Below, piece after piece: positions 38,126-62,017 of a stretch of 64,000 nt of DNA (position 1 is the stretch's first letter; every line of letters starts with the position of its first letter). This DNA is from Pseudanabaena sp. BC1403 (GTDB lineage: Bacteria > Cyanobacteriota > Cyanobacteriia > Pseudanabaenales > Pseudanabaenaceae). The notes below the pieces were generated by a model that was not told where the DNA came from, ran no database searches, and was given only the letters and a program-made list of their open reading frames with translations. Position numbers and translations under genes: made by a program. The DNA lies in contig NZ_PDDM01000004.1 in assembly GCF_002914585.1 (NCBI RefSeq), positions 62,001 through 126,000 of the forward strand, in the 5' to 3' direction.

Positions 38126-38845
38126 CTATAACTGAGACATCTGTTTTAGGGCGATGGCTGCTGCCTCTTGTTGAGCAGCTTTAATGCTTTTGCCTTGACC
38201 TTTGCCCCAGCAGCGATCGTCAAACCATACTTCTACGCAAAAAAGACTGTTAACTGCATCAACATTGCGATATTCAGGTAACCGTTTCCAGCGTCCTTGA
38301 GTTAATTCTTGTAGGGCAACTTTGTAGTTTCCTAAGGCAGGAATCGCCAATAACGATTCGGAAAAACGAAGCATATGTGGATCGAGCCATTTGCGAATAT
38401 AGGCTAAGTCACAAGTCGCAATATATATTGCTGCCATTAATGCTTCAAGGGCATCCGCCAGCAGCGATCTCAAAGCCTGAGAATCATTCCGCGCTGCATT
38501 AGAAACCACGACATATTTTTGCAGCTCATAAATACTGGCTATTTCGGCTAGGGTTTTGTCACTGACAAGATGCGATCGCAGAGCGGCTAAGTCCCCCACT
38601 TTGCGATCGCCATATTGCTCTTTTAAAAACAAACTCACCGACAATCGCAGCACGCTATCGCCCACAAACTCTAATTGATCGTTGTTGTAAACATTTGAGA
38701 AACTGGGATGTACCAAAGCTTGATCGATTAATAGCCAATCAAATCCAGCGGAATTGACTCGTTCTAGGGTTGATTGCTCTAGCCCCATCCGCTCTAACAA
38801 GCGGACTAATTCTCTTTGGCGGCGTGGATCAATGGTAGATGTCAT
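38126..38845 (-). CDS. rnc: Ribonuclease III
   Basis: 239 residues from ATG 38845 (MTSTIDPRRQREL); the longer frame begins with TTG at 38875. RNase III cuts double-stranded RNA (rRNA precursors, mRNA). The nuclease domain has NDQLEFVGDSVLRLSVSLFL (the signature, with the metal-binding Glu/Asp) and LRSLLADALEALMAAIYI (second acidic pair). The C-terminal dsRBD (about 165-239) has NYKVALQELTQGRW and GKSIKAAQQEAAAIAL. All key residues are present. It is divergent from the NatB-like gene with a gap of about 70 bp. Confidence 0.93.
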   Translation of the reverse strand: MTSTIDPRRQRELVRLLERMGLEQSTLERVNSAGFDWLLIDQALVHPSFSNVYNNDQLEFVGDSVLRLSVSLFLKEQYGDRKVGDLAALRSHLVSDKTLAEIASIYELQKYVVVSNAARNDSQALRSLLADALEALMAAIYIATCDLAYIRKWLDPHMLRFSESLLAIPALGNYKVALQELTQGRWKRLPEYRNVDAVNSLFCVEVWFDDRCWGKGQGKSIKAAQQEAAAIALKQMSQL

Positions 38846-38916
38846 GAGACTTTGCAGATACTTTTGCAGATACAATTACAGCAACTTCGTAAATATGATC
38901 GTAGTCCATCGTAACC

Positions 38917-40236
38917 ATGACTAAAAGGTTTTTCTCTACACTCTGTCTAGCCCTGCTAGCAACAGTGACCACAATTTGGATTGTGGCTTGCCAGCCTAGT
39001 ACTACAGTTACTGACTCTAAAACCACCTCTGCCACATCACCCGCAACAAGCTCAGGTGGTGGCGGCGTTAAAGACACCTTACGTTTAGGTGCATTGTTAC
39101 CGATCACAGGCGATCTATCCTCGATTGGTTCGCCAATGATCAAATCGATTGATTTTCTTGTAGAAACAGTCAACAAATGCGGTGGTGTACTTGGGAAGCC
39201 AATCACTTACCTTAAAGAAGATGATCGCACCGATCCACCAGCAGGTGCTGAGGCGATGACTAAACTCGTTAAAGTGGACAATGTTGGTGCTGTTGTTGGT
39301 TCATTTGCCAGCAGTGTATCTACGGCTGCTCTTGCGATCGCTGTTCCCAATAAAGTCGTGATGATCTCGCCAGGTAGCACTAGCCCAGTCTTTACCGAAC
39401 GTGCTAAAAAAGGTGAATTTAATAGTTACTGGTATCGTACTGCCCCACCTGATACATACCAAGCTTTAGCTTTGGCTAACCTTGCTTATAAAAAAGGAGC
39501 GAGAAAAGTTGCCACCCTAGTAATTAATAATGACTACGGTGTTGGTTTTGAGAAAGCCTTTGTGGAAGCCTTTGAAAAACTCGGTGGCACAATTGTCAAC
39601 AAAAGCAAACCAACCCGCTACGATCCTAAAGCAACGACGTTTGAAGCAGAGGCTAAGGGTGCATTTGGCAGTAAGCCCGATGCTGTTGCGGCAATTCTCT
39701 ATCCCGATTCTGGCGGTGCGGTGATAAAGGCAGCTTTTGAGCAGGGATTGACAAAAGATGTCAAAATTTTGCTCACTGATGGGGTTAAGACCGAAGACTT
39801 TCCTAAGCTAATTGGTAATACCCCTGAAGGTAAATTAATTTTGGCAGGTGCGATCGGCACTGTGCCTGGTGCTGATGGTAAGTCTCTTGCCGAATTTACT
39901 AAGACCTACAAAGAAAAAACTGGTCAAGATTTGGGTGCTTTTGTTCCCCATTCCTATGATGCAGCAGCTCTAGTTGCGATCGCTGCTGAAGCTGCCAAAG
40001 ACGGCACTGGAGACGGCATCAAGAGTAAAATTCGTGAAGTTGCTAATGCGCCTGGTAAAGAAGTCACTGATGTTTGCGAAGCAATCAAGCTAGTCAAAGC
40101 AGGTACAGACATTGACTATCAAGGTGCTAGTGGAAATGTTGATCTAGATGAATATGGCGATGTCAAAGGTAGCTATGACGTTTGGGAAGTCCAGCCCGAT
40201 GGCAAAATTACTGTAATTGATCGCGTTTCTCCTTAA
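38917..40236 (+). CDS. Amino-acid ABC transporter substrate-binding lipoprotein (NatB-like)
   Basis: 439 residues. Signal peptide with lipobox WIVAC, lipidated Cys25, then a Thr/Ser-rich linker and a type I periplasmic-binding fold (Leu/Ile/Val-binding family): TLRLGALLPITGDLSSIG, VVGSFASSVSTAALAIA, VVMISPGSTSP and ATLVINNDYGVGFEKAF. It resembles NatB of the cyanobacterial Nat-I neutral amino acid transporter. No permease or ATPase genes lie beside it, so the partner components must be elsewhere. Lgt and Lnt, both encoded here, would process it. Confidence 0.85.
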   Translation: MTKRFFSTLCLALLATVTTIWIVACQPSTTVTDSKTTSATSPATSSGGGGVKDTLRLGALLPITGDLSSIGSPMIKSIDFLVETVNKCGGVLGKPITYLKEDDRTDPPAGAEAMTKLVKVDNVGAVVGSFASSVSTAALAIAVPNKVVMISPGSTSPVFTERAKKGEFNSYWYRTAPPDTYQALALANLAYKKGARKVATLVINNDYGVGFEKAFVEAFEKLGGTIVNKSKPTRYDPKATTFEAEAKGAFGSKPDAVAAILYPDSGGAVIKAAFEQGLTKDVKILLTDGVKTEDFPKLIGNTPEGKLILAGAIGTVPGADGKSLAEFTKTYKEKTGQDLGAFVPHSYDAAALVAIAAEAAKDGTGDGIKSKIREVANAPGKEVTDVCEAIKLVKAGTDIDYQGASGNVDLDEYGDVKGSYDVWEVQPDGKITVIDRVSP

Positions 40237-40254
40237 ATTAAACGTCCTTATCCC

Positions 40255-40288
40255 AAATCACAAAAGTGTGCTGACACTTTTGTGATTT
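40255..40288. terminator. Hairpin terminator after the NatB-like gene
   Basis: 15-bp perfect stem AAATCACAAAAGTGT, loop GCTG, complement at 40274-40288. Confidence 0.65.
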
Positions 40289-40295
40289 AAAAATC

Positions 40296-40466
40296 AAATG
40301 TTCGCTTAGCAATGCTCATGTAAAAAATTGGTTTTTGGAAATCAAGCCTGTGCACTTTCCAAAAACCAATTTCAGATTTTCTAACGCCGTAGGCGTTAGA
40401 AAATCTGAAATTGGTTTCACAATAAGAATTGCCGATGGTCGCTTAATCTCATTTGGGCGAACATTT
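40296..40466. repeat. Five-part inverted-repeat element (copy B)
   Basis: Outer inverted ends AAATGTTCGC (40296-40305) and GCGAACATTT (40457-40466). Inside: end motif TAGCAATGCTCATG; X (40325-40341) and X' (40356-40372); immediately Y CAGATTTTCTAACGCC (40373-40388), loop GTA, and Y' (40392-40407); immediately X'' AAATTGGTTT (40408-40417), repeating the start of X; then CACAATAAGAATTGCC. The order is identical to copy A although stems X and Y differ in sequence. It fills most of the 303-bp gap before 40541. Confidence 0.75.
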
Positions 40467-40540
40467 AATTAAGGCAAAAACCTGCTAATCTTTTTTGTAA
40501 AAATTCACAGCAATACATATCAATAAAGGCGCTAACATCT

Positions 40541-40933
40541 ATGGCGATCGAACTTAAAGCTGCTCCACCGCAAGAAGTTTCAATCTACATGCCCTATTAT
40601 CGAGAGCCTAACAAGCGTCAAGCTCTCCCCTATGCCATTTCCCTATACAAACAAGGTGAAATTACAGGCGAGCGCCATGTTGAAGGAAGCTCCCCCATAT
40701 CTTTTATGGCAGTATGGCGCGTGGCAAACTTGCCGTCTGATCTGGCATTATGTCGACTGACCTTCGATGGTGATGCTGACATGAGCTATGAAATGACATT
40801 GGAAAATTCAGAATTTGTTGGCTATTTAATTGAAGTTGTCTCAAATATTCGTGACAAGGGTTACGTTGATTTCCCCCAAATTTTTTACAGTAAGCTATTT
40901 CGACTTAAGCTCTCTAGTGCGGAAGGCAATTAA
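40541..40933 (+). CDS. Unknown protein, first gene of the 40.5-45.3 kb cluster
   Basis: 130 residues, start ATG 40541 (MAIELKAAPPQEVSIYMPYY); no clean ribosome site. No signal peptide or membrane segment. The chain is mixed alpha/beta with several aromatic strands (PISFMAVWRVANLPSDLALC) and a helix-rich end (FVGYLIEVVSNIRDKGYVDF). I do not recognise a family. Spacing to the next gene is 155 bp, so membership in one operon is not certain. HIP1-type sites in and around it are normal for the genome, so there is no sign of recent import. Confidence 0.65.
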   Translation: MAIELKAAPPQEVSIYMPYYREPNKRQALPYAISLYKQGEITGERHVEGSSPISFMAVWRVANLPSDLALCRLTFDGDADMSYEMTLENSEFVGYLIEVVSNIRDKGYVDFPQIFYSKLFRLKLSSAEGN

Positions 40934-41088
40934 ATCTTTTGCTAATTTTTGCTCATATAGCAACCCAAAAAATATCAACTCATGTATAATCCTTAGCTCA
41001 AATCTTGCTAAAAAAAACAAAGTCAGCTAAAGTCCTGATGCAGCTTTTTATAAGGCAAAAGAATAGTCAAATTTAAGGGGTTTATATT

Positions 41089-41352
41089 GTGTCATATGCC
41101 GCCCAGCGCCTTGAACAAACTGAGAGACAGCCAGAACCTGTAGTCAAAAAAGTAGATCCGATGATTATCAGAGCTGCTAAGCAGATTTATCGTTACTATG
41201 CTGATTCCTATGCCGCGCAACTACCACGACCTATGGGAATAGCTATCAATCGCATAGATATGACTGGCAAACTTATTTATTCTCAACTGATTTTGCTGCC
41301 ACAAGAAAGCTTTGTGCCAATGGAATTAATTGAGCTATCTGACTATCATTAA
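41089..41352 (+). CDS. Unknown small protein of the 40.5-45.3 kb cluster
   Basis: 87 residues, GTG start at 41089 after AAGGGGTTTATATT. The first 25 residues are charged and Gln/Glu-rich (AAQRLEQTERQPEPVVKK). The rest has a Tyr-rich helix (MIIRAAKQIYRYYADSYAAQ) and two strand-like stretches (IAINRIDMTGK, IYSQLILLPQESF). No known motif and no signal peptide. It could be a small accessory or binding protein of the cluster. The 190-bp spacer to the next gene is AT-rich and may hold a promoter. Confidence 0.6.
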   Translation: MSYAAQRLEQTERQPEPVVKKVDPMIIRAAKQIYRYYADSYAAQLPRPMGIAINRIDMTGKLIYSQLILLPQESFVPMELIELSDYH

Positions 41353-41544
41353 ATTTGTTTAGTGATTTCACTTAAGTTACTTTTGTCAAAACTAATTTGC
41401 AAAAGATTTGTAGAAAACTTACTTATAAAATATTTTAACAAAAGATTTTATTGTGAAAAAGTCTATGTTTAAGTGCTTAAAATAATAGTCAGTTATCTGT
41501 CTTGATCAAAACTTATCAGGATTTTTATACGTTAGGTATCATTT

Positions 41545-41985
41545 ATGACTTACTCAAGTTCTTCGTCGGTATCAGTAACAGCGTCGGTGCGTTTTCAAAG
41601 CAAGCTCAAAGAAACCAAAAATTTTGGTGATGCTTTGATTGAAATCTTTTCTGATCTTGTGCAGTTAGAAATTGTGACTTGGGTTGCCCATGAAGGAGAT
41701 ACGACCCATAAAGCAGGTAATCGCTTAAAGACAAAGATTAATCTGATTGATGGTGATATTGAAAATGAGCTAGGGGCAGATTTTTTGCAGGGCTCTCCCT
41801 ATGCGGAGCTACGGGGCTTCCATGAAATTCAAGTTGAGAAGGGTTCAGAGACGATCGCGAATAATCTCAAAACTTTGGTAGATATTGGTCAAAAGGTAAC
41901 AGGGCTTTTAAATGGTGAAAGTGAACCAGAACCTGAAGAAGATAGGGCTAGCTTTAGCAGCGATCGCATCTTTAGTCGGGTCTAG
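41545..41985 (+). CDS. Unknown protein with segment shared with its downstream neighbour
   Basis: 146 residues, ATG 41545. A Ser-rich start (MTYSSSSSVSVTASVRFQ) is followed by FGDALIEIFSDLVQLEIVTW. That stretch matches in pattern FRETIKDVLEEITSLEVNTL of the next gene's product, and both then have V plus polar residues. After it comes a predicted beta-rich part (KTKINLIDGDIENELGAD, then YAELRGFHEIQVEKGSE), a helix and an acidic tail (SEPEPEED). No signal peptide, membrane segment or known family. The next gene starts 39 bp downstream. Likely a soluble partner of that protein. Confidence 0.65.
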   Translation: MTYSSSSSVSVTASVRFQSKLKETKNFGDALIEIFSDLVQLEIVTWVAHEGDTTHKAGNRLKTKINLIDGDIENELGADFLQGSPYAELRGFHEIQVEKGSETIANNLKTLVDIGQKVTGLLNGESEPEPEEDRASFSSDRIFSRV

Positions 41986-42024
41986 TTGCGTCTAGTTTAT
42001 GCGACCTGTCACTGAGGAATCTGT

Positions 42025-42897
42025 ATGCGAGATCTGGCTACAAATAATAAAAGTAATGCCGCAGATGATGCTAATCAGGTTAAAGCTGATAGTAACAAGC
42101 CTGTAAAGAAATCTTCGGAATTAGTGACTAATGCTTCTAGCATTGCAGCATCGCCCAAAAAAGATGGTGCTGGAGAAAGTACTACTCTTAAGAAGTTTCG
42201 GGAAACAATCAAAGATGTTTTAGAAGAAATTACTTCGCTGGAAGTGAATACACTGATTGTTAGACAGATTCCGATCGCAAGGTTTGATGCAAGAGAGTTT
42301 TACTCTAATCTGATCGAAAGTATTATGCACAAAACTGAAGCAGGGCTGCATGACACCAGAAAATCTTTGCTTGAACGTAGTAAAGAGCTGCAAAAGAAAG
42401 GTTCGACGGTTTCTCAGGCTGAGCTAGATTGGTATAACCAAGATTTAGAAATCTATAAGCAAGCTGAACGAACCTTTAGAGAGCGACAAAATTTGACTGA
42501 CCCTCAGCAAAAGGAGCAATTTGAAAATGAAAAAGCCTGTTATGAGCAGCTAGCTAGTAAAGTGTTGTCGTTGGATATTCCTAAAGATGCTGACGGTCGA
42601 ATTATCACTGATGCGCCGATGATTCGATATTTCCGCACATTATGGGAATTTGAGCAATCAATTTTGAATGGTGAACAAATTTATGCTCAGACTAAATTTG
42701 AGCTTGATGGTGATTTGACCAATAGATTTCTTGATGATTTGTTTGTCCCCACCAGAAGCAAAATTGATCCGAAAATGGCAAAACTTGTTTTTGATTTACA
42801 TAATCAAGCAGTCGAAAATGCTCAGAAGCAATGGACGGGCTTGATTACGACTTGCGTAAATCTAGTCAAAGATTTGATCCCATTCAGAGATAAATAG
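42025..42897 (+). CDS. Unknown protein, helical, of the 40.5-45.3 kb cluster
   Basis: 290 residues, ATG 42025 (MRDLATNNKS). Residues 1-55 are polar, Lys/Asn/Ser-rich and probably disordered. Residues about 56-85 contain KKFRETIKDVLEEITSLEVN, the segment shared with the preceding protein. The rest is mostly long charged helices (TEAGLHDTRKSLLERSKELQ, then EIYKQAERTFRERQN), suggesting a coiled coil or helical bundle, ending with a hydrophobic helix-like stretch TGLITTCVNLVKDLIPF. That tail could be membrane-active or amphipathic. No known family. A 194-bp gap follows, with a small hairpin. Confidence 0.65.
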   Translation: MRDLATNNKSNAADDANQVKADSNKPVKKSSELVTNASSIAASPKKDGAGESTTLKKFRETIKDVLEEITSLEVNTLIVRQIPIARFDAREFYSNLIESIMHKTEAGLHDTRKSLLERSKELQKKGSTVSQAELDWYNQDLEIYKQAERTFRERQNLTDPQQKEQFENEKACYEQLASKVLSLDIPKDADGRIITDAPMIRYFRTLWEFEQSILNGEQIYAQTKFELDGDLTNRFLDDLFVPTRSKIDPKMAKLVFDLHNQAVENAQKQWTGLITTCVNLVKDLIPFRDK

Positions 42898-43022
42898 TCG
42901 TTATAGCCCTTGCTAATCTTGTGAGGACACAAAACCTGAATATGAATTGAGTCACTTCGAGACGCAACGAGCTTCTTAGGTTTTGATTTATTAAGTTTAA
43001 GTAGATGGACGCAACATGACAA

Positions 43023-43064
43023 TTTTGAATTGATGATAAGAGTGACCCTTACACCAATTCAAAA
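43023..43064. other. Small hairpin between cluster genes
   Basis: Arms TTTTGAATTG (43023-43032) and CAATTCAAAA (43055-43064) with a 22-nt loop, 28 bp before the next start. A weak stem; it may be a leader structure. Confidence 0.35.
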
Positions 43065-43091
43065 ATCTACAAATGATTAAAAAATGGAGTT

Positions 43092-44024
43092 ATGGTGGTT
43101 ACGCCTGATTGGTTGGCTGTTATCGATGACGAAATTAGTTTGTGGCTTAACCCAAATGTTCTTGCCCAGATTGATCTTGATACTCAGGGAATAGCAGTTG
43201 GCAGCGAAATCATTTATAGAGTTAATAGTCAGGAATTATTGCAAGTATTAGCCTCTTGTGTGGGTATAGCGGCAAGACAGCAAGGGGCGATCGCAATTTG
43301 GACTTATTACACTAGCAATGTTGGTGATGTCCCTACAACAACTCCATCACCAATATTACGAACTTTGATGAACATAGATGGAGATCTTAGTCAAAAAGTC
43401 TGTCAAGACATCTTGCAGCATCCTGAAGCTGATCGCATTTTACAAGCGCATGGGTTGATGATTGGTCAAATTTCGCGACAATTTTTAACGGCGATAACTG
43501 ATTACGTTGAGCAAAAATTACGCCCCTTTACGATCGCTGCTGTATCTTTTGCCACGACCATCACATGGTGTGAGCCATTGCAAAATCTTGGTAAACGCCT
43601 GAATTTGCCAGAAAGTTTTAGTGCATTTTTAACCAGTCAATGTTGGCACATGGCGATCTCTGCTCCAATTGTGGTCTTAATGATTTGTTGGATTTCTGCC
43701 AAACTGAATCTGACATTGCCCACATTGCCCAAGCTGAGCCAGAATTTTTTTAAGAATTTACTCCAGCTTTTAGAAAACCAATTTTTTCGACTGATTGCGA
43801 TCGCAGTTGTCATAATTTTATTTTTGTGCTGGGCGACGATCAAAGTGGCAAATCTCCAAAATGCTCATTTGAATAGTCTGATTCCTATAATCGAATCTTA
43901 TTTAGAGCCATATTTACCCATTGCGATTGTCAGTTTACGGAAATTGATCGTCACTGGACTAGGCAAAATCTTTTTCCGCTATCCCTTCTTTGTGAAATTG
44001 ATTTTTGGGCGTTTCATAAGATGA
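43092..44024 (+). CDS. Unknown membrane protein of the 40.5-45.3 kb cluster
   Basis: 310 residues, ATG 43092 preceded by ATGGAGTT. Residues 1-150 are soluble (VVTPDWLAVIDDEISLWLNP, later GIAARQQGAIAIWTYY). Two clear hydrophobic segments follow at about 195-210 (MAISAPIVVLMICWIS) and 235-257 (LIAIAVVIILFLCWATI), with a further weaker one near 275-292 and a basic aromatic tail (FFRYPFFVKLIFGRFIR). No pore or enzyme motif recognised. It is placed 37 bp before a peptidoglycan-hydrolase-like gene that has no signal peptide, so a role in passing that enzyme across the membrane is conceivable, as in holin-endolysin pairs (inference). Confidence 0.65.
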   Translation: MVVTPDWLAVIDDEISLWLNPNVLAQIDLDTQGIAVGSEIIYRVNSQELLQVLASCVGIAARQQGAIAIWTYYTSNVGDVPTTTPSPILRTLMNIDGDLSQKVCQDILQHPEADRILQAHGLMIGQISRQFLTAITDYVEQKLRPFTIAAVSFATTITWCEPLQNLGKRLNLPESFSAFLTSQCWHMAISAPIVVLMICWISAKLNLTLPTLPKLSQNFFKNLLQLLENQFFRLIAIAVVIILFLCWATIKVANLQNAHLNSLIPIIESYLEPYLPIAIVSLRKLIVTGLGKIFFRYPFFVKLIFGRFIR

Positions 44025-44061
44025 TGGTGTTACGCAAAGTGGAAATTACTCGATAAAGACC

Positions 44062-45318
44062 ATGAAACAAGTTGAGATTTGGCGATCGCAAGCCGCAGCA
44101 ACCCTTGCATTTCTAGTTCCCAAAATTGTCGGCAGTACAATCAATGAAAAAGATGGACTGGTGGATGATCTGGTGCGAGTACTCAATAACTTACCCGCAC
44201 GTCCAGAAACTCGACAGCCCTATGCAGGTATTCTTCCAGCAGCCGATTTACCAACATGGCGCAGTCGGGCAGCCTTAACCCTTAAAGCTTCAGTGCCGAG
44301 GATTCCCGATGTTGAAGGTAGTGTTTTTGATGGGGCGATCGATGATTTGATCCGCTTTCTGCGTAATTTGCCAGCACGTCCGACAGGGCGATCGCCCTAT
44401 GCAGGACTTTTCCCTGCTGCGGATCTGGCAACATGGCGCAAACAAGCCGCGCAGACTTTAGTGGCAGCGATCGGTAATATTGTCGATCCTAAGCTCAATA
44501 GTGCTGATGGCAAAATTGATGACTTGATTCGGGCGATGAGCGGATTGACTTTGCGTCCAATTTTACGAAAACCCTATGAAGGTCTTTACCAAGCGCCAAA
44601 CCTGACCGAACATCGCAAGTTAGCGGCGCGACGCTTAGATCAATTGATTAGGGGACTTAAAGATGATTTCAATGCCAAAGATGTACTAGTTGATAGCACG
44701 ATTCGAGTTCTCAATAATTTGCCCGCACGCAGCCTTGCTCAAGAACCCTATGAAGGCTTATATCCTCGTGCTCCTGAAGTTGTGACTTCTGGGCTGATTA
44801 CCCAAGAACAACTCAGTGCGATCGCACCCTATTCTCGACGCGATCGCCTTGAGAAATTACTGCCCCACCTAAATACGACCATGCAGCGCTATGCAATTAC
44901 GACACCTCTCCGCAAAGCGCATTTCCTTGCTCAAGTGGGACATGAGAGTGATGGATTTAACACTAATGAAGAATATGCTTCTGGTGCAGACTATGAAGGA
45001 CGACGAGATCTCGGCAATACACAATCGGGTGATGGTGTTCGCTTTAAAGGTCGCGGTTTGATCCAAGTTACTGGCCGAGCAAACTATGCTGATTGTGGTC
45101 GAGCTTTGGGCGTGGACTTGATTAATAGTCCTCAGCGTTTGGGAGATTTCGATCTCGCTTGTCTCAGTGCAGGTTGGTTTTGGGACACTCGTGCACTTAA
45201 TAATCATGCCGATCGCGATGATATCCTCACGATTACAAAAATCATCAATGGCGGTACTAATGGCTTAGCCGATCGCGAATCCTATCTAGCCAGAGCAAAG
45301 CGTGTATTGGGAGCTTAA
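44062..45318 (+). CDS. GH19-like glycoside hydrolase with four N-terminal repeats
   Basis: 418 residues, ATG 44062. Residues about 5-240 are four repeats of about 59 residues: W/H-R-x2-A-A-x-T/R-L, an Asp-rich helix (DGLVDDLVRVLNNLPARP), then PYAGL/PYEGLxP. Residues about 245-418 form a chitinase/endolysin-type GH19 domain: LRKAHFLAQVGHESDGFNTN with the likely catalytic Glu, NEEYASGADYEGRRDLGNT, and RFKGRGLIQVTGRANYADCG, the classic signature. GH19 enzymes of this small kind cut peptidoglycan or chitin. There is no signal peptide or membrane helix, so secretion is unexplained. It is the last gene of the cluster, before a strong hairpin. Confidence 0.85.
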   Translation: MKQVEIWRSQAAATLAFLVPKIVGSTINEKDGLVDDLVRVLNNLPARPETRQPYAGILPAADLPTWRSRAALTLKASVPRIPDVEGSVFDGAIDDLIRFLRNLPARPTGRSPYAGLFPAADLATWRKQAAQTLVAAIGNIVDPKLNSADGKIDDLIRAMSGLTLRPILRKPYEGLYQAPNLTEHRKLAARRLDQLIRGLKDDFNAKDVLVDSTIRVLNNLPARSLAQEPYEGLYPRAPEVVTSGLITQEQLSAIAPYSRRDRLEKLLPHLNTTMQRYAITTPLRKAHFLAQVGHESDGFNTNEEYASGADYEGRRDLGNTQSGDGVRFKGRGLIQVTGRANYADCGRALGVDLINSPQRLGDFDLACLSAGWFWDTRALNNHADRDDILTITKIINGGTNGLADRESYLARAKRVLGA

Positions 45319-45321
45319 CCC

Positions 45322-45362
45322 AAAAGATAAAAGGCGGTGCTTTGCACCGCCTTTTATCTTTT
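45322..45362. terminator. Hairpin terminator closing the cluster
   Basis: 19-bp perfect stem AAAAGATAAAAGGCGGTGC (45322-45340), loop TTT, complement at 45344-45362. Confidence 0.75.
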
Positions 45363-45415
45363 GAGATTATGTTTTAATGGATGAATTATGTACAGGTTTT
45401 GGCGAGGAAAAATCC

Positions 45416-45533
45416 ATGAATCTGCAACCTCTAACATCTAAAGAAGCGATCGCGCCAGAGATAGACTATCCTGACAGTCAGATTGCCTTGCCGAACGTTT
45501 ACGAGCTTTAGGTATCGATCCAGACGATGTTTA
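45416..45533 (+). pseudogene. Remnant of a Uma2 (DUF820) gene
   Basis: ATG 45416 opens a 31-codon frame (MNLQPLTSKEAIAPEIDYPD). In a neighbouring frame, 45489-45533 reads LAERLRALGIDPDDV-stop, the typical end of cyanobacterial Uma2 proteins. Compare LRELGIDPDAL of the intact copy at 12.5 kb. Most of the gene is missing. The remnant overlaps the start of the ATPase gene at 45527. Confidence 0.6.
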
Positions 45534-46108
45534 AACCTAATAGTAATTTGGGCTTATGTGGCGCACATCGCACTGGCAAAACGACTTTGGCGATCGCGAT
45601 CGCATCCCATCTAAATATCCCCTTTGTCCGCACTACCACTAGTCAAGTTTTTGCGGATTTGGGTTTAGACCCTGCCGAACCGATGGATTTTAAGACCAGG
45701 CTATTTGTGCAGAATCATGTTCTAGATGCTGCCGAGCAGGTTTGGCAAAATTCAGCAGTACCATTTGTTAGCGATCGTACTCCGATTGACATGATCGCTT
45801 ATACCCTCGGAGATATCCAAGGCAAAACCGAGGTTGACTTTGATTTGCTCAGTCAATATATAGATCGCTGCTTTGCTAGTACCAATCAATTTTTTCAAAA
45901 TCTTGCCATCATTCAACCAGGCATCCCACTTGTCTATGAAGATGGCAAAGCAGCTCTAAATGCTGCATATATTGAGCATATTAATGTTTTAGTGATTGGG
46001 CTATGTAGTGATTCGCGTCTCAAAGCTAATGTATTTTGTAATGCGCGAGATGTGATCGATCTAGAAACTAGAATCCTTAATATTTTGGAATATTTTGAAG
46101 CGCTGTAA
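45527..46108 (+). CDS. P-loop ATPase/kinase (AAA, NadR-like)
   Basis: 193 residues. The Walker A loop GLCGAHRTGKTTLAIAIA occupies residues about 9-26. The rest resembles small P-loop kinase-like proteins of the NadR/AAA_28 type: FVRTTTSQVFADLG, VPFVSDRTPIDMIAYTLGD (likely Walker B/Asp region) and a terminal helix. A nucleoside or nucleotide kinase or a GTP/ATP switch is possible; substrate unknown. The start ATG lies within the Uma2 remnant, so the gene may now use sequences of the dead gene for translation. It is single, with pilin genes downstream. Confidence 0.75.
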   Translation: MFKPNSNLGLCGAHRTGKTTLAIAIASHLNIPFVRTTTSQVFADLGLDPAEPMDFKTRLFVQNHVLDAAEQVWQNSAVPFVSDRTPIDMIAYTLGDIQGKTEVDFDLLSQYIDRCFASTNQFFQNLAIIQPGIPLVYEDGKAALNAAYIEHINVLVIGLCSDSRLKANVFCNARDVIDLETRILNILEYFEAL

Positions 46109-46173
46109 ATCTCTGGAAACTGGGTAACTTGATCTAAGGGAAAAGGATACAAGTTAGTCATAGGTATGGGACA

Positions 46174-46740
46174 GTGGACTTCAGGAATTTAGAATTTATC
46201 GTTGGTTTATGGCTTCGCGATCGCCGTTTTAGTAAACCTCAAGACTCAGAAGGGCAGGGCTTTACATTAATTGAGTTGTTAGTTGTGATCGTTATTATTG
46301 GTTTGCTAGCTGCGATCTCGCTCCCTTCATTTCTTAACCAAGCCAACAAGGCACGCTTTGCAGAAGCTAAGACTTACATCGGCACGATGAGTCGGCTGCA
46401 ACAAGCCTATTATCTGGAAAAAAGAATATTTGCTGATGATATAGGCAAGCTGAACTTGGGGATAAATACATCGACATCAAATTTTACTTATTCAGTGATT
46501 AAGGGTGATATTAATGGCAATACTACCCCATTCCAGTTAGATCAAATTATAACCAATGCTGCAACGCCATCATCCACAACCTTAAAGGCTTTTGTTGGCG
46601 TTGTGGGGATACCTGGGGTCGTCAGAATAGACACCGTTTTTTGTATTGCCAATGATCTTAATATTGCTATCCCTCCTGGATCGCTTAATGCCACTTCACA
46701 AACTATGGTATGTCCGCCCACCTTTTCGCCAGCCGAATAA
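46174..46740 (+). CDS. Type IV pilin-like protein (pilin G/H-type), minor
   Basis: 188 residues, GTG start at 46174. Prepilin leader of 29 residues, cut after Gly29 by PilD; the mature protein starts FTLIELLVVIVIIGLL (Glu at mature position 5). Then comes the N-terminal helix continuing LPSFLNQANKARFAEAKTYI, and a globular part with two Cys (near residues 156 and 180) that may form the C-terminal disulfide loop. The helix region is almost that of the next gene, but the globular part differs. A minor pilin or major-pilin variant is likely. It is terminated by its own hairpin, so it is not co-transcribed with the following pilin. Confidence 0.85.
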   Translation: MDFRNLEFIVGLWLRDRRFSKPQDSEGQGFTLIELLVVIVIIGLLAAISLPSFLNQANKARFAEAKTYIGTMSRLQQAYYLEKRIFADDIGKLNLGINTSTSNFTYSVIKGDINGNTTPFQLDQIITNAATPSSTTLKAFVGVVGIPGVVRIDTVFCIANDLNIAIPPGSLNATSQTMVCPPTFSPAE

Positions 46741-46745
46741 AAACT

Positions 46746-46796
46746 TAAAAACAAAAGCTAAGTCAGCACAAAGTGCTGATTTGGCTTTTGTTTTTA
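46746..46796. terminator. Hairpin terminator after the minor pilin gene
   Basis: 24-bp arms with a few mismatches; inner stem GTCAGCAC-AAA-GTGCTGAT and outer AAAAACAAAAGC/GCTTTTGTTTTT. Confidence 0.65.
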
Positions 46797-46907
46797 GCAA
46801 TCAAAAAATATTTTTTCTTTGAGTGATAGCATCTTGTTTTTTTGTGGGTAAGTTACTTTCACAACCCAACTAGTTAACTAACTCGACATACACGGGAATA
46901 AAGAATT

Positions 46908-47558
46908 ATGAAATCTGAATTCAAGACTAAGCTCATTCAACACATCCTCAACAAGAAGAATGGCGAAAAGGGCTTCACCCTGATCGAATTACTCGTAGTT
47001 ATCATCATCATCGGTATCTTGGCTGCGATCGCGCTTCCTTCTTTCCTCAACCAAGCTTCCAAAGCTCGTCAGTCTGAAGCCAAAACCTATGTAGGTTCCA
47101 TGAATCGTTCTCAGCAATCTTACTATTTGGAAAAACAACAGTTTGCCCCTAACCTCACCACATTGGCAGTTGGTATTGCAAACAAAACTGAAAACTACGG
47201 TTACGGTGTGGCTCTAGCTGGTGCAAAAACTGCAACTGGTACTAACCAAAGTGTTGCTAATTTTGGCGCTCCTTTTAACGCTGTAACGGCTGGTGGAGGT
47301 ACTAACCCTGACACCGTAACTGGTAATGCTGCTGGTGCTATCAAAGCTTATGTTGGCGGTGTTAACATCGCAACACCAGCAGGTACTAATGAAGCTACTA
47401 CCCTAGCCATACTTTGTGAAGCTCAGCTTGCGCCTGTAAATGGTGGTAACGCTGGAAGTGCGGTTATTGCTAACGCCCCAACCTTTTCTACAAATGCTGT
47501 TCCTGTATGTGCTGGTGCTCCTACAACTGGCGGTACGAACTTCGCTCCAATCAACTAG
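46908..47558 (+). CDS. Type IV pilin, major pilin candidate
   Basis: 216 residues, ATG 46908. Leader MKSEFKTKLI...GEKG is 22 residues, followed by FTLIELLVVIIIIGILAAIA; Glu5 present. The head region is Gly/Thr/Asn/Ala-rich (TAGGGTNPDTVTGNAAGAI) with Cys near residues 167 and 201. Codon use is strong (AACAAG, ATCATC runs), which suits a highly expressed major pilin (PilA type). The Thr/Ser-rich head offers many O-glycosylation sites; OGT-type genes follow directly downstream. The pil chemosensory operon at 2.9-11.6 kb would control these pili. Confidence 0.85.
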   Translation: MKSEFKTKLIQHILNKKNGEKGFTLIELLVVIIIIGILAAIALPSFLNQASKARQSEAKTYVGSMNRSQQSYYLEKQQFAPNLTTLAVGIANKTENYGYGVALAGAKTATGTNQSVANFGAPFNAVTAGGGTNPDTVTGNAAGAIKAYVGGVNIATPAGTNEATTLAILCEAQLAPVNGGNAGSAVIANAPTFSTNAVPVCAGAPTTGGTNFAPIN

Positions 47559-47576
47559 TATTTTGGGCTAAAACTT

Positions 47577-47628
47577 ATACCCTTATCTTTGATATTCACT
47601 GTTCTCAGCGAAACAAAGATGAGGGTAT
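47577..47628. terminator. Hairpin terminator after pilA-like gene
   Basis: 15-bp arms ATACCCTTATCTTTG (47577-47591) and CAAAGATGAGGGTAT (47614-47628), one G-T pair, then TTTTT. Confidence 0.65.
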
Positions 47629-47674
47629 TTTTAATTTATTTACTTTATCAATTTTATCTTTGGCGTACATTTCT

Positions 47675-49822
47675 ATGAGAGCAGAGTGGCAAAAATCTTT
47701 ACGAAATAATAGCTACGCCCAAATCATTCAACTTTGTGAACAGGGGATCATTGTAGATCCAAGTTCTAATATCAACTACTGGTATTTGGGGTTAGCTTAT
47801 TTTTTTAATGGAAATGAGGACTTAGCTAAAACTATATGGAGCTCGCGCTTAGAGGGTGTTCTCCATGATGATTTATCAATTCAAGAACTTTGCGAAATTT
47901 TAATCCAAGAAGCCTTAGAGCAAGAACAGATTCAAAAACATGATATCGCACTAAAAATTCGTCGGCAGATAGCTCACATATCACCACAAAATTTTGATAA
48001 CTTAGTTCAGATTGTTTATCTATATTTACAACTTAAAATATTTACTTTAGAAGTTTTACAAGAACTCAACTTATTAGATTTAAATCGATTTGGCACTGTC
48101 AATTCTAGTTCTTTATTTCAGCTAATACAGAATATTCTATATTCACCTCTAGATGAGGAAAAGTCTTTAGATTTTGTGTCTTCTCTGCTGCCTTATGCTG
48201 AAGACAAAGAAGGTTGCATTAATATGTTGCTCTATGTAGCACCAAAAGCTAAAAAATTAGAAACATCAATGAAAATAATTGATATGTGCTTACAGATTAG
48301 TCCTAATAGTATTGCAGTATTAGGCTGTGCTGTCCAGCTTTATATCAACAACAGTTGCTATGACAAAAGTATAAAAATTGCTCGTGGTATTGTGTCAATC
48401 GCTAAAAATCTTACAGAAAAGATTGTGGCGACCCACCTACTTTTAGGAGCATTAATGAGTGCAGGTGGTTATTGGCAAGAGGCTCAAAAAGCTTTTGCTG
48501 ACTATCAATACTTACTAACAGAACTAGTTGACCAAAATCCTATTGATATTCCTATAATTACCCGCTCATATCTCTGTCTGTCATTTTTTTATAATCCCTA
48601 TTTTACTGATACGCCTCGAATCACTCGCCCTATTCAAAATCAAGTTCTAAGTCTATTTCAGGCTAATATTCAACACTCTAATCCGACCCAAACATATAAA
48701 CATGATCTAGTTAAGCAAAAAGGCAAGAAACTAAAAATTGCCTACCTTTCTACTAATTTAAGAAAACACTCTATTGGATGGCTAGCTCGATCCTTATTTC
48801 AATATCATAATCACAACGACTTTGAAATTTATGGTTATTTTCCAGAATATCAAGATAATAAAGATTTTCTACAAGAATGGTACATTAGCCAGATGGATAC
48901 AGCCTATAAAGGCTGGGGGAATGAATTAAAAGTTGCGGAACAAATTTACAACGATGAGATTGATATATTAATTGATCTAGAAAGTTCTACTTCTGGGGCT
49001 TGTTGCAATATAGTAGCCCTTAAACCGGCTCCTTTACAAGCTACTTGGTTAGGTTGGGACGCTTCTGGGATACCTGCAATTGATTACTTTATTGCCGATC
49101 CTTATGTATTACCAGAAAATGCTCAAGAATACTACTCAGAGAAGATTTGGAGATTGCCACAAACATATATAGCTGTTGATGGTTTTGAGACTTCAGTCGC
49201 TACTCTACGCCGCAGTGACTTAGATATTTCTGGTGATGCTATTGTTTATTTTAGTTCTCAAAAAAGTTATAAACGTCACCCCGATACAGTGCGATCACAA
49301 ATGCAAATTATTAAGCAAGTACCAAATAGTTACTTCTTAATTAAGGGAATTGCTGATGAAAAGACCATGCAAGAGTATTTTTATGAGATGGCGGAGTTAG
49401 AAGGGGTAAACTCTGATCGCCTCAGATTTTTACCGTCGGTTAGGTCGGAACAAGAACACAGAGCTAATATGGCGATCGCTGATATAGTTCTGGATACTTA
49501 TCCATACAATGGAGCTACAACCACAATGGAAACCTTATGGATGGGGATTCCATTGGTCACAAGAGTAGGAGAACAATTTGTAGCACGAAATAGTTATGCC
49601 ATGATGATGAATGCTGGAATTACTGAAGGTATTGCTTGGAGTGATGAAGAGTATATTAAGTGGGGTATAAGATTTGGCTCAGAACCAAATTTGAGACGAG
49701 AAGTATCATGGAAGCTGAGAGAATCTCGTAAAACTTCATCTCTTTGGAATGGTAGACAGTTTGCGAAAGAGATGGAAAAAGCTTATACAGAAATGTGGAA
49801 TATCTACTTGCAGAGAAAATAA
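47675..49822 (+). CDS. OGT/SPINDLY-type glycosyltransferase (GT41), copy 1
   Basis: About 715 residues from ATG 47675 (MRAEWQKSLRNNSY); the longer frame would overlap the pilin gene. N-terminal TPR-like helices cover about residues 1-345 (YWYLGLAYFFNGNEDLAKTIW is one unit, written here as YWYLGLAYFFNGNED). The GT41 catalytic domain begins at 351: KLKIAYLSTNLRKHSIGWLA with H365 at the position of the conserved His of OGT, then DILIDLESSTSGA, PAPLQATWLGWDASGIPAID, SQKSYKRHPDTV and DTYPYNGATTTMETLWMG (UDP-sugar site). The family puts GlcNAc or other sugars on Ser/Thr, and bacterial members modify flagellin, pilin or surface proteins. It runs into copy 2 with a one-base overlap. Confidence 0.85.
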   Translation: MRAEWQKSLRNNSYAQIIQLCEQGIIVDPSSNINYWYLGLAYFFNGNEDLAKTIWSSRLEGVLHDDLSIQELCEILIQEALEQEQIQKHDIALKIRRQIAHISPQNFDNLVQIVYLYLQLKIFTLEVLQELNLLDLNRFGTVNSSSLFQLIQNILYSPLDEEKSLDFVSSLLPYAEDKEGCINMLLYVAPKAKKLETSMKIIDMCLQISPNSIAVLGCAVQLYINNSCYDKSIKIARGIVSIAKNLTEKIVATHLLLGALMSAGGYWQEAQKAFADYQYLLTELVDQNPIDIPIITRSYLCLSFFYNPYFTDTPRITRPIQNQVLSLFQANIQHSNPTQTYKHDLVKQKGKKLKIAYLSTNLRKHSIGWLARSLFQYHNHNDFEIYGYFPEYQDNKDFLQEWYISQMDTAYKGWGNELKVAEQIYNDEIDILIDLESSTSGACCNIVALKPAPLQATWLGWDASGIPAIDYFIADPYVLPENAQEYYSEKIWRLPQTYIAVDGFETSVATLRRSDLDISGDAIVYFSSQKSYKRHPDTVRSQMQIIKQVPNSYFLIKGIADEKTMQEYFYEMAELEGVNSDRLRFLPSVRSEQEHRANMAIADIVLDTYPYNGATTTMETLWMGIPLVTRVGEQFVARNSYAMMMNAGITEGIAWSDEEYIKWGIRFGSEPNLRREVSWKLRESRKTSSLWNGRQFAKEMEKAYTEMWNIYLQRK

Positions 49823-51654
49823 TGACAGAAATAGCTTTTAATTATTTAACAGAAGGCAAATATGCCGAAGCGGCTAGTCTCTACGAAACTGCGATCGCTT
49901 CCGAACCTGATACCAAGTCTAACTATTGGTATTTGAGCTTATGTTATTTGTTCCAAGGGAATATAGAAGAAGCCCAGATGGCTTGGTGGGTAACTCTAGA
50001 AGAGGATAGCCCCTATACAGATGACTTTACAGAGTTTTTGAGGCTCTTTGCTACAGAGTTTGGACATAAGTTAAATAAATATGACTTTGCCATACAAATA
50101 TTAAAGGCAAGTATCGAGTTAGAGTCCGAGAACATAAACTTACTAAGAGATCTCGCTCGTTTCTATCGCTTCACATTGCAATATGACAATTGTATTGATG
50201 TAGCTAAAAAATATTTGTCGTTAGCTGAGGATTTACCTGATCGTATCTTTGCAAACCATTTAATTTTGCATTCCCTCATGACCGCAGGTAGCCAGTGGGA
50301 CGAAATATTTTCTACTAGCGATCAACAAATATCATTACTGCGATCAGTAATAAAGCAGAACCCCATTGCTATTGATCCTGTAGCGACAAATCGACTATTT
50401 TGCTCTACATTTTTCCTAGCATATATTCAAGATGATCCAGTAAATAATCGACTACTTCAAAATGAATTAACTAAAATCTGTCAGAACAATTTGAGACTGT
50501 ATAAGAAACATGAAGTAAGTAAATCACGATCAATTAAATCTGGCAATAAACTCAAAATTGGATACTTATCTCATTGCCTTGGCAAAAATTCTGTAGGATG
50601 GCTATCTAGATGGATATTCCAACACCATGATCACGAAAAATTTGCTATTCACACTTATTTTATTTTAGAGAAATCTAATGTAACTGATTCCGTCAAAGAG
50701 GCGATTGCTCAAAATTCTGATAAATACTATCAACTAGGGTATGACGCTATAGAAATAGCTCAAAAGATCCATGATGATGAGATTGATATACTAGTTGATC
50801 TCGACAGCATTACCCTAGATATTACCTGTGAAGTCATGGTAATGAAACCTGCGCCTATACAAGTAACTTGGTTGGGGTTAGATGCATCTGGCATACCTGC
50901 CATAGATTACTTCATTGCCGATCCGTATGTGTTACCAGAAAATGCTCAAGATTATTACTCTGAAAAAATCTGGCGATTACCTAGTACTTATATCGCAGTA
51001 GATGGATTTGAAGTTTTGTTCCCAACTCTCCACCGTGATCAAATTGATATCCCTGAAGATTCGATTATTTATCTCTCAGCCCAATCAGGATATAAAAGAC
51101 ATCCTGATACGGTAAGACTTCAAATGCAGATTATTAAATCAGTACCTAATAGCTTTTTACTAATCAAAGGACTTTCAGATCAAGAAAGTATCCAAAGCTT
51201 TTTTAAAAAAATAGCAACAGAAGAAGGGGTTAATAGCGATCAACTCCGTTTTTTACCAATGGTTGGCGGAGAAGCCGAGCATCGAGCAAATCTGGGAATT
51301 GCTGACGTAATTTTAGATACCTATCCATACAATGGCGCAACTACTACTATGGAAGCTCTATGGATGTGTATTCCTCTAGTTACCAAAGTTGGAGAACAAT
51401 TTGCTGCGCGTAATAGCTATACCATGATGATGAATGCAGGAGTTGTAGAGGGAATTGCTTGGAATGATCAAGAGTATATAGATTGGGGTATTCGACTAGG
51501 TACTGATGAAGATTTGAGAAAGCAAGTATTTTGGAAATTAAAAGAATCTCGTAAAACTTCGCCTTTGTGGAATGCTGAGCAGTTTACTAGAGATATGGAA
51601 TCAGCTTATGAACAAATGTGGGAAGAGAAGAGAGTATTTCATTTTGGAAAATAA
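49822..51654 (+). CDS. OGT/SPINDLY-type glycosyltransferase (GT41), copy 2
   Basis: 611 residues from ATG 49822 in TAATG, one base overlapping the stop of copy 1. It has a shorter TPR part (residues 1-235; AFNYLTEGKYAEAASLYETA). The GT41 domain from 244 is close to copy 1: TWLGLDASGIPAIDYFIADP, GYKRHPDTVRLQMQI and DTYPYNGATTTMEALWMCIP. At the conserved His of the first catalytic motif it has Asn: KIGYLSHCLGKNSVGWLSRW, N256. Either the enzyme uses another base or it is a regulator or partner of copy 1. The last 60 bases are copied at 54.1 kb. Confidence 0.85.
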   Translation: MTEIAFNYLTEGKYAEAASLYETAIASEPDTKSNYWYLSLCYLFQGNIEEAQMAWWVTLEEDSPYTDDFTEFLRLFATEFGHKLNKYDFAIQILKASIELESENINLLRDLARFYRFTLQYDNCIDVAKKYLSLAEDLPDRIFANHLILHSLMTAGSQWDEIFSTSDQQISLLRSVIKQNPIAIDPVATNRLFCSTFFLAYIQDDPVNNRLLQNELTKICQNNLRLYKKHEVSKSRSIKSGNKLKIGYLSHCLGKNSVGWLSRWIFQHHDHEKFAIHTYFILEKSNVTDSVKEAIAQNSDKYYQLGYDAIEIAQKIHDDEIDILVDLDSITLDITCEVMVMKPAPIQVTWLGLDASGIPAIDYFIADPYVLPENAQDYYSEKIWRLPSTYIAVDGFEVLFPTLHRDQIDIPEDSIIYLSAQSGYKRHPDTVRLQMQIIKSVPNSFLLIKGLSDQESIQSFFKKIATEEGVNSDQLRFLPMVGGEAEHRANLGIADVILDTYPYNGATTTMEALWMCIPLVTKVGEQFAARNSYTMMMNAGVVEGIAWNDQEYIDWGIRLGTDEDLRKQVFWKLKESRKTSPLWNAEQFTRDMESAYEQMWEEKRVFHFGK

Positions 51655-61966: not shown

Positions 61967-62017
61967 TGAAGCCTATTAGTTTTAGGTATATATCACGTTG
62001 CTACAACGCTTTTTACT

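Follow-up and report, generated by a model that had tools for sequence, protein, structure and literature searches.

Do six co-directional genes in a stretch of the Pseudanabaena sp. BC1403 genome form one system, as their order at first suggested? The window is the whole 64 000-nucleotide stretch analysed here (positions 62001–126000 of contig NZ_PDDM01000004.1, our contig C4 of genome G000, which comprises 5.5 Mb in 88 contigs), and the six + strand open reading frames (ORFs) at 40541–45318 encode, in order, products of 130, 87, 146, 290, 310 and 418 amino acids (aa), all of them present as a first-pass annotation made from the sequence alone had listed them. That annotation saw in them a single candidate system of five unrecognised genes plus a repeat-bearing GH19 hydrolase, serving lysis or release, protein export or an attack on the wall. 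The block is mis-drawn. It consists of three neighbouring evolutionary units: ebsA with gene 2 (product p2); a module of genes 3, 4 and 5 (products p3, p4 and p5); and the GH19 hydrolase (gene 6) with a nucleoside triphosphatase (NTPase) neighbour. What is new in the block is the p3–p4–p5 module, so that one part of the candidate stands as an undescribed set, while ebsA is a described gene and the wall hydrolase stands apart.

Three proteins sharing one small domain

How are the products of genes 3–5 related to each other? By their sequence profiles, p3, p4 and p5 are diverged paralogues sharing one small domain, predicted to run alpha1-beta1-beta2-(DGD turn)-beta3-alpha2: p3 has the domain on its own, in p4 a large insertion interrupts it, and in p5 it stands ahead of membrane helices. 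Profile–profile comparison gave expectation values (E) of 7e-7 for p4 with p5, 3e-4 for p3 with p5 and 7e-4 for p3 with p4, and the score of every real pair was out of reach of 100 column shuffles and of any reversed profile. Thus the segment that had been noticed as common to genes 3 and 4 is borne out, and gene 5, in which it was missed, shares it too. Common to all three is a helix followed by a strand, then two strands flanking a DGD turn, and finally a long helix; on p4 the p3–p4 match falls at residues 55–81 and the p4–p5 match at 222–276. In two other families a wider p3 profile picks up the p5 protein as well (L110 and L112, each with a conditional E under 1e-3). The closest named relatives of p3 are in Pseudanabaena (96–97% identity).

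In p5, hydropathy reveals the two clear hydrophobic segments expected of the 310-aa protein (residues 187–205 and 234–252) and a weaker third (277–295), and the C-terminus carries FGRF in all 18 aligned rows. The soluble parts are acidic, with an isoelectric point (pI) of 5.0 for the p3 core and 4.6 for residues 1–170 of p5.

None of the three proteins matches a Pfam or NCBIfam family above cut-off, and none has a family name in those libraries, in PHROGs or in PADLOC. For p3 there was no match in Pfam, NCBIfam or PADLOC, the best in PHROGs being PHROG 19524 (E 0.015); the best weak NCBIfam match of p4 was FlbB (E 0.008), whose 15.9 bits fall short of the 110-bit cut-off. Among solved structures, sequence searches found no relative of p3 at E 5, and three matches of p4 (E 0.009–0.8) were taken as chance. 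We found no paper on p3–p5 in the open-licence literature. A viral origin of the module was considered and set aside, a search of viral contigs for two peptide patterns of p3 having found no relative. EbsA and p2 were likewise rejected as further p3 paralogues by profile comparison (EbsA against p3–p5 in hhalign, E 0.03 or worse).

Distribution of the three units

Presence was scored at E 0.01 in a sample of 291 genomes of the class, with related genomes treated as independent in Fisher tests. In that sample p3 occurs in 52 genomes, p4 in 45 and p5 in 33, the p5 set lying within the p4 set and the p4 set within the p3 set. Outside the family, p4 accompanies p3 in 18 of 25 genomes and is present in none of the 232 others (p = 2e-22, uncorrected for kinship). 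The wider p3 profile matched in 65 of 388 class genomes and 30 of 160 genera. Gene context was read in 30 loci chosen non-randomly, from matches and exceptions; 28 of these have p3, and in 17 of the 28 p4 adjoins a p3-type gene (13/18 in one set, 4/12 in the other). Many of the loci L026–L043 evidently coincide with contigs of the genomes carrying G handles, and the two kinds of count were kept apart and unsummed. p3–p5 are three related proteins, unnamed in the family libraries, that are co-inherited in patchy cyanobacterial lineages.

Conservation of gene order across cyanobacteria, on which a six-gene system would depend, holds within the genus (G000–G025), where p5 is present in 25 of 26 genomes and GH19 adjoins it in 24 of those 25 loci, but not beyond: in 18 p3 context loci (17 genomes outside the family plus the family member L118), neither GH19 nor the NTPase gene is near p3 in any (0/18 each), and ebsA and p2 are nearby in L118 only. 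The exceptions are telling. G017 keeps the ligand-binding gene that lies upstream of ebsA, then ebsA, p2, GH19 and the NTPase gene; p2 and GH19 are separated by 44 bp, p3–p5 are missing from between them, and profile searches did not find p3, p4 or p5 elsewhere in that genome. G007 has the ligand-binding gene, ebsA, p2, p3, p4 and p5 with no GH19 behind them, its GH19 being on another contig. In G028 and G029 (related genera) the locus has the ligand-binding gene, ebsA and p2 side by side but lacks genes 3–6, and weak GH19-repeat matches lie elsewhere in both genomes. In L041 and L042 (from a further related genus, and seemingly identical with contigs L118 and L263) ebsA, p2, p3 and p4 are followed by a gene for a 226-aa protein with a weak p5 match (E 0.008), and there is no GH19. 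From these exceptions it follows that ebsA plus p2, p3–p5 and GH19 can each be gained or lost alone. Nor, outside the family, do p3 and the GH19 repeat part go together, the repeats being present in 4 of 25 genomes with p3 and in 35 of 232 without it (p = 0.55); the hydrolase is a separate gene with its own distribution.

Elsewhere, p3 has another recurrent location. A Maf-like gene is its nearest same-strand upstream neighbour in 9 of the 30 loci, and psbP precedes maf in eight (labels assigned with Pfam for three Maf proteins and two PsbP proteins). Of 21 tested genomes that lack p3, however, seven also have psbP next to maf; as the pairing does not depend on p3, the two were rejected as functional partners, and the arrangement is a recurrent location rather than proof of a link.

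In the family f36 (L117, L230, L231 and L237) a p3 of 101–109 aa is followed by a second p3 with a DW-rich acidic tail, and no p4 or p5 was detected in these loci.

Long acidic tails

The 30 loci contain 42 p3-domain proteins (44 profile matches minus two p5). Half of these (21/42), one in each of 21 of the 28 p3 loci, extend into an acidic tail of 65–1809 residues (D+E 17–41%, K+R 1–10%, pI 4.05–4.27), and in 14 such loci a short p3 is present as well. Composition, by which alone they were judged, suggests that the tails are disordered. The motif [DN]PFA occurs 15 times in 8 of the 21 tails (mean 0.6 and maximum 4 in 500 shuffles), and LF[AGS][DEN] and DW-acidic also exceed shuffles; two others of the eight patterns, DDW and [DE]PW[EDA], stayed within the shuffle range. 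This motif evidence is weak because the patterns were picked after looking and some copies come from internal repeats. An extreme case is L106:1832-7627 (– strand), a 1931-aa p3-domain protein whose acidic tail contains, by eye, long internal repeats.

A probable resemblance to the YbaB fold

What might the shared domain look like? p3 was modelled with AlphaFold2 on 19 sequences (the window and L026–L043), and p5 in a separate run. The p3 model runs helix-helix-strand-strand-strand-long helix (helix 27–36, strands 40–46, 60–66 and 72–76, helix 88–122), the ten-residue blocks of its core (residues 41–120) having predicted local distance difference test (pLDDT) values of 72–86. The p5 model begins with a beta hairpin and a helix, continues with helix 46–56, strands 67–73, 89–93 and 99–103 and helices 105–108 and 113–169, and ends in further helices over the hydrophobic segments. 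Both models place the DGD turn between strands 2 and 3. PMC9610160 gives the topology of YbaB/EbfC, a known DNA binder, as alpha1/beta1/beta2/beta3/alpha2, and PMC11480477 gives the same topology, with an extra short alpha', for STIC2. All five YbaB crystal structures named in the former (1j8b, 1pug, 1ybx, 3f42 and 5yrx) are among the 50 matches listed when the p5 model was compared with the PDB by Foldseek (E 5–7), and four YbaB crystals are in the top five of a second structure comparison with p3 (Z 5.0–5.2, with 3.8 or less from rank 6 on). The fold of p3 and p5 is therefore probably YbaB-like, as far as the models go.

A candidate membrane scaffold

The module has direct support in the common ancestry of its proteins, their co-occurrence and linkage, the hydrophobic segments, the acidic tails and the independence from GH19. 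We propose, at a level of confidence that leaves the matter evenly balanced, that p3–p5, within a block of three units, constitute a membrane-anchored heteromeric YbaB-like scaffold and not a lysis or secretion device. Given a YbaB-like fold, we infer that the proteins might dimerise through the beta sheet. Heterodimers of the YbaB type would then form among p3, p4 and p5, p5 would anchor the assembly at the cytoplasmic face of a membrane, and acidic tails might recruit or shield basic partners.

Several observations weigh against this proposal. Confidence in the models is medium (mean pLDDT 68 for p3 and 71 for p5; predicted template-modelling scores 0.51 and 0.54), and they come from shallow alignments. 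No Foldseek match for either reaches E 0.001; Z values of about 5 for p3 fall below the safe level of the tool, and the non-YbaB chain 9g8n ties at Z 5.0. In the second comparison with p5 no YbaB chain is among the 50 rows listed, none of which is above Z 5.8 and which cover mostly helical regions. Kinship with YbaB at the level of sequence was tried and rejected: hhalign of p3, p4 and p5 against 17 cyanobacterial YbaB sequences did not align them in register, and none of the three matches PF02575 at E 1. It is for these reasons (non-significant matches, a second p5 comparison without YbaB, unaligned sequences) that we call the fold YbaB-like but stop short of assigning the proteins to PF02575. 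As to the module itself, p3 lacks a detected p4 in 7 of its 52 genomes, and p5 was detected in only 8 of the 130 genera sampled (p4 in 16). Pseudanabaena has no long-tailed form, the one p3 match in its own genome having a short acidic end, and with gaps of 192 bp between genes 2 and 3 and of 194 bp between genes 4 and 5 a shared transcript is uncertain.

What might such a scaffold be for? One bold extension, which we consider improbable at present and which rests on analogy, is that p3–p4–p5, together with the acidic-tailed p3 of other lineages, could be machinery peculiar to cyanobacteria that helps to make membrane proteins or to organise the membrane surface. In this picture a heteromer with the YbaB fold would be anchored in the (thylakoid) membrane and its polyanionic, disordered arms would collect basic clients, ribosomes for example, so playing in bacteria the part that STIC2 plays in chloroplasts. 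It is kept in view because co-expressed YbaB raises membrane-protein yield in Escherichia coli (PMC9610160) and STIC2 binds nascent-chain ribosomes in thylakoid protein sorting (PMC11480477). The place of p3 after psbP–maf would fit a link with photosystem assembly under such a role.

Alternative explanations

Could the place of the module beside ebsA be functional, with p3–p5 working alongside EbsA in type IV pilus assembly? The order ebsA-p2-p3-p4 is common to the genus and the related genus of L041 and L042, two Pilin_GH-type pilins (Pfam) are encoded 0.9 and 1.6 kb downstream of GH19, and EbsA acts in pilus biogenesis (PMC8092324). Against this, ebsA is near only one of the 18 p3 loci considered above (that of L118), p3 follows maf instead in nine of the 30 loci, and EbsA is present in 23 of 25 genomes tested whereas the wider p3 profile finds p3 in so much smaller a fraction of the class. 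A pilus role seems unlikely to us.

We judge similarly unlikely a YbaB-like nucleoid system, in which the proteins would tether DNA to the membrane and the acidic tail would act as a DNA mimic. The YbaB-like topology of the models and the DNA binding of YbaB/EbfC (PMC9610160) speak for it, but the p3 core and p5 residues 1–170 are acidic, which speaks against plain DNA binding, and, besides the absence of sequence kinship to YbaB, a separate PF02575 gene is present in all 20 genomes tested.

Very improbable is the reading nearest to the original one, that all six genes serve lysis, release or export, with p5 as a holin-like protein or transporter for the leaderless GH19 enzyme, as in holin–endolysin pairs or type 10 secretion. 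The p5–GH19 order within the genus (37 bp apart here), the lack of a hydrophobic leader and a catalytic domain close to those of phage endolysins all favour it. However, the loss of p3–p5 from G017, with GH19 retained, and the p5 of G007 without adjacent GH19 argue against a holin–endolysin or type 10 pairing, despite the near-constancy of the order in the genus. The soluble domain of p5, about 170 residues long, is related to p3 and p4; GH19 is never near p3 in the 18 context loci and is unassociated with it outside the family; and no viral relative of p3 appeared in the scan, which covered two peptide patterns. A single six-gene system was rejected on the strength of these natural losses and of the separate distributions of its parts. 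A role in attacking the wall is likewise unsupported; PADLOC at E 0.1 matched no anti-phage defence family for genes 1–6 or for three module relatives.

Least credible of all is that genes 3–5 are unrelated and alike only through a short low-information motif: the pairwise probabilities are modest (p3–p4 27%, p3–p5 38%), but the shuffled and reversed controls, the p4–p5 score, the same order of elements in both models and the nested co-occurrence all oppose it.

Neighbouring genes and signals

Coordinates are collected in Table 1. The ligand-binding gene precedes ebsA in those genus loci that reach that far, and also in G028, G029 and G031. Gene 1, counted earlier among five unrecognised genes, is ebsA: residues 5–122 of its 130-aa product score 163.5 bits against NF045587 (curated cut-off 33). 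EbsA is described in PMC8092324 as a cyanobacterial type IV pilus biogenesis factor, from Synechococcus elongatus. p2 has no family match in Pfam, NCBIfam or PHROGs; for that reason the idea that gene 2 is Hfq, prompted by work on EbsA, Hfq and PilB, was dropped. The p2 profile matched in 97 of 116 class genomes, and p2 adjoins ebsA in all three family members compared (G000, G028 and G029); in the 20 genomes from other families that have both, the two are never neighbours.

Table 1. Features in and around the six-gene block (window coordinates)
Feature	Position	Strand	Basis and remarks
Periplasmic ligand-binding-type gene	38917–40236	+	Pfam PF01094/PF13458; conserved neighbour, outside the module
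20-pair inverted repeat upstream of ebsA	40369–40411		Hairpin scan
Gene 1, ebsA, type IV pilus biogenesis	40541–40933	+	NCBIfam NF045587, E 2e-48
Gene 2 (p2), 87-aa conserved cyanobacterial protein, function unassigned	41089–41352	+	Profile search
Gene 3 (p3), predicted single alpha-beta-beta-beta-alpha domain, short acidic tail	41545–41985	+	AlphaFold2; wider profile
Gene 4 (p4), same predicted domain, long insertion after first strand	42025–42897	+	Inferred from profile alignments
Gene 5 (p5), same predicted domain, then membrane helices and basic conserved C-terminus	43092–44024	+	AlphaFold2, hydropathy, alignment, profile
Gene 6, hydrolase of the GH19 endolysin/chitinase type without hydrophobic leader	44062–45318	+	PF00182, PHROG 181, 9ms7
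Four 59-aa repeats, N-terminus of the GH19 protein	44080–44787	+	Period 59, starts at residues 7, 66, 125 and 184
Intrinsic-terminator-like hairpin, 20 pairs	45321–45363	+	Terminator scan
AAA/kinase-like NTPase gene, follows GH19 in the genus	45527–46108	+	PF13521, E 2.6e-6; synteny

Successive gaps between genes 1 and 6 are 155, 192, 39, 194 and 37 bp; the first two had been noticed as large, the gap between genes 4 and 5 had not. A strong hairpin does close the block, as had been seen, but two weaker + strand terminator-like matches lie within it (40850–40865, six pairs; 40919–40942, eight pairs, at the end of gene 1), and 40200–45600 contains eight terminator-like sites against 4.9 (sd 2.3) in shuffles. 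The inverted repeat between the ligand-binding gene and ebsA is perfect (core TTTTCTAACGCC-GTA-GGCGTTAGAAAA), is a single copy in the window and was not obtained in any of 100 shuffles. Rfam matched no RNA family over 38500–47600.

Gene 6 is, as first described, a repeat-bearing GH19 protein, and it has no hydrophobic leader. Its catalytic domain occupies residues 244–417 (PF00182, E 7e-10 and 39.6 bits against a curated 25.5; the endolysin family PHROG 181, E 1.5e-66; the solved endolysin 9ms7, E 1e-36). HESDGF and GRGLIQVTGR, which we take to be motifs relevant to GH19 function, appear intact by eye, and hydrolytic activity is predicted. The N-terminal repeat part was found in 69 of the 291 class genomes; three loci read by eye have two, four and about eight repeats ahead of GH19, the longest being the 709-aa GH19 protein of L267:2934-5063 (+ strand). 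The 55 viral contigs that match gene 6 do so within residues 204–418, mostly from 237 on, which is the catalytic part.

Further out, the window has an RNase III-like gene with a double-stranded-RNA-binding motif at 38126–38875 (– strand). At 46174–51654 the two pilin genes are followed by a glycosyltransferase-41-like gene (Pfam), and by eye a second ORF (49795–51654) also resembles such a gene.

Comparison with known systems

The arrangement within the genus resembles holin–endolysin and type 10 pairs in that a membrane gene lies directly ahead of a leaderless hydrolase; it departs from them in the separation of p5 and GH19 in G017 and G007, and in the large soluble domain that precedes the membrane helices of p5. 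Gene 6 shares its catalytic domain with the GH19 endolysins but, unlike them, has four 59-aa repeats at its N-terminus and belongs to cyanobacteria, being kept throughout much of the genus. Gene 1 falls within EbsA (NF045587), to which p3–p5 are unrelated in sequence.

With YbaB/EbfC (PF02575) the p3 and p5 models have the order of elements in common, and YbaB crystals are prominent among the weak structure matches. No sequence relation was found in the comparisons described above, and the module differs in its acidic cores, three paralogues, membrane form and long acidic tails. STIC2 is alike in its YbaB-type topology and its setting in an oxygenic phototroph; according to PMC11480477, it is modelled as a homodimer in contact with the Alb3/Alb4 C-termini, whereas in the module the paralogue p5 has membrane helices of its own. 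The functional parallel with STIC2 is our own suggestion. If a membrane-tethered YbaB-fold assembly does exist in these cyanobacteria, a fold familiar from a DNA binder and from a plant thylakoid sorting factor would gain a new role.

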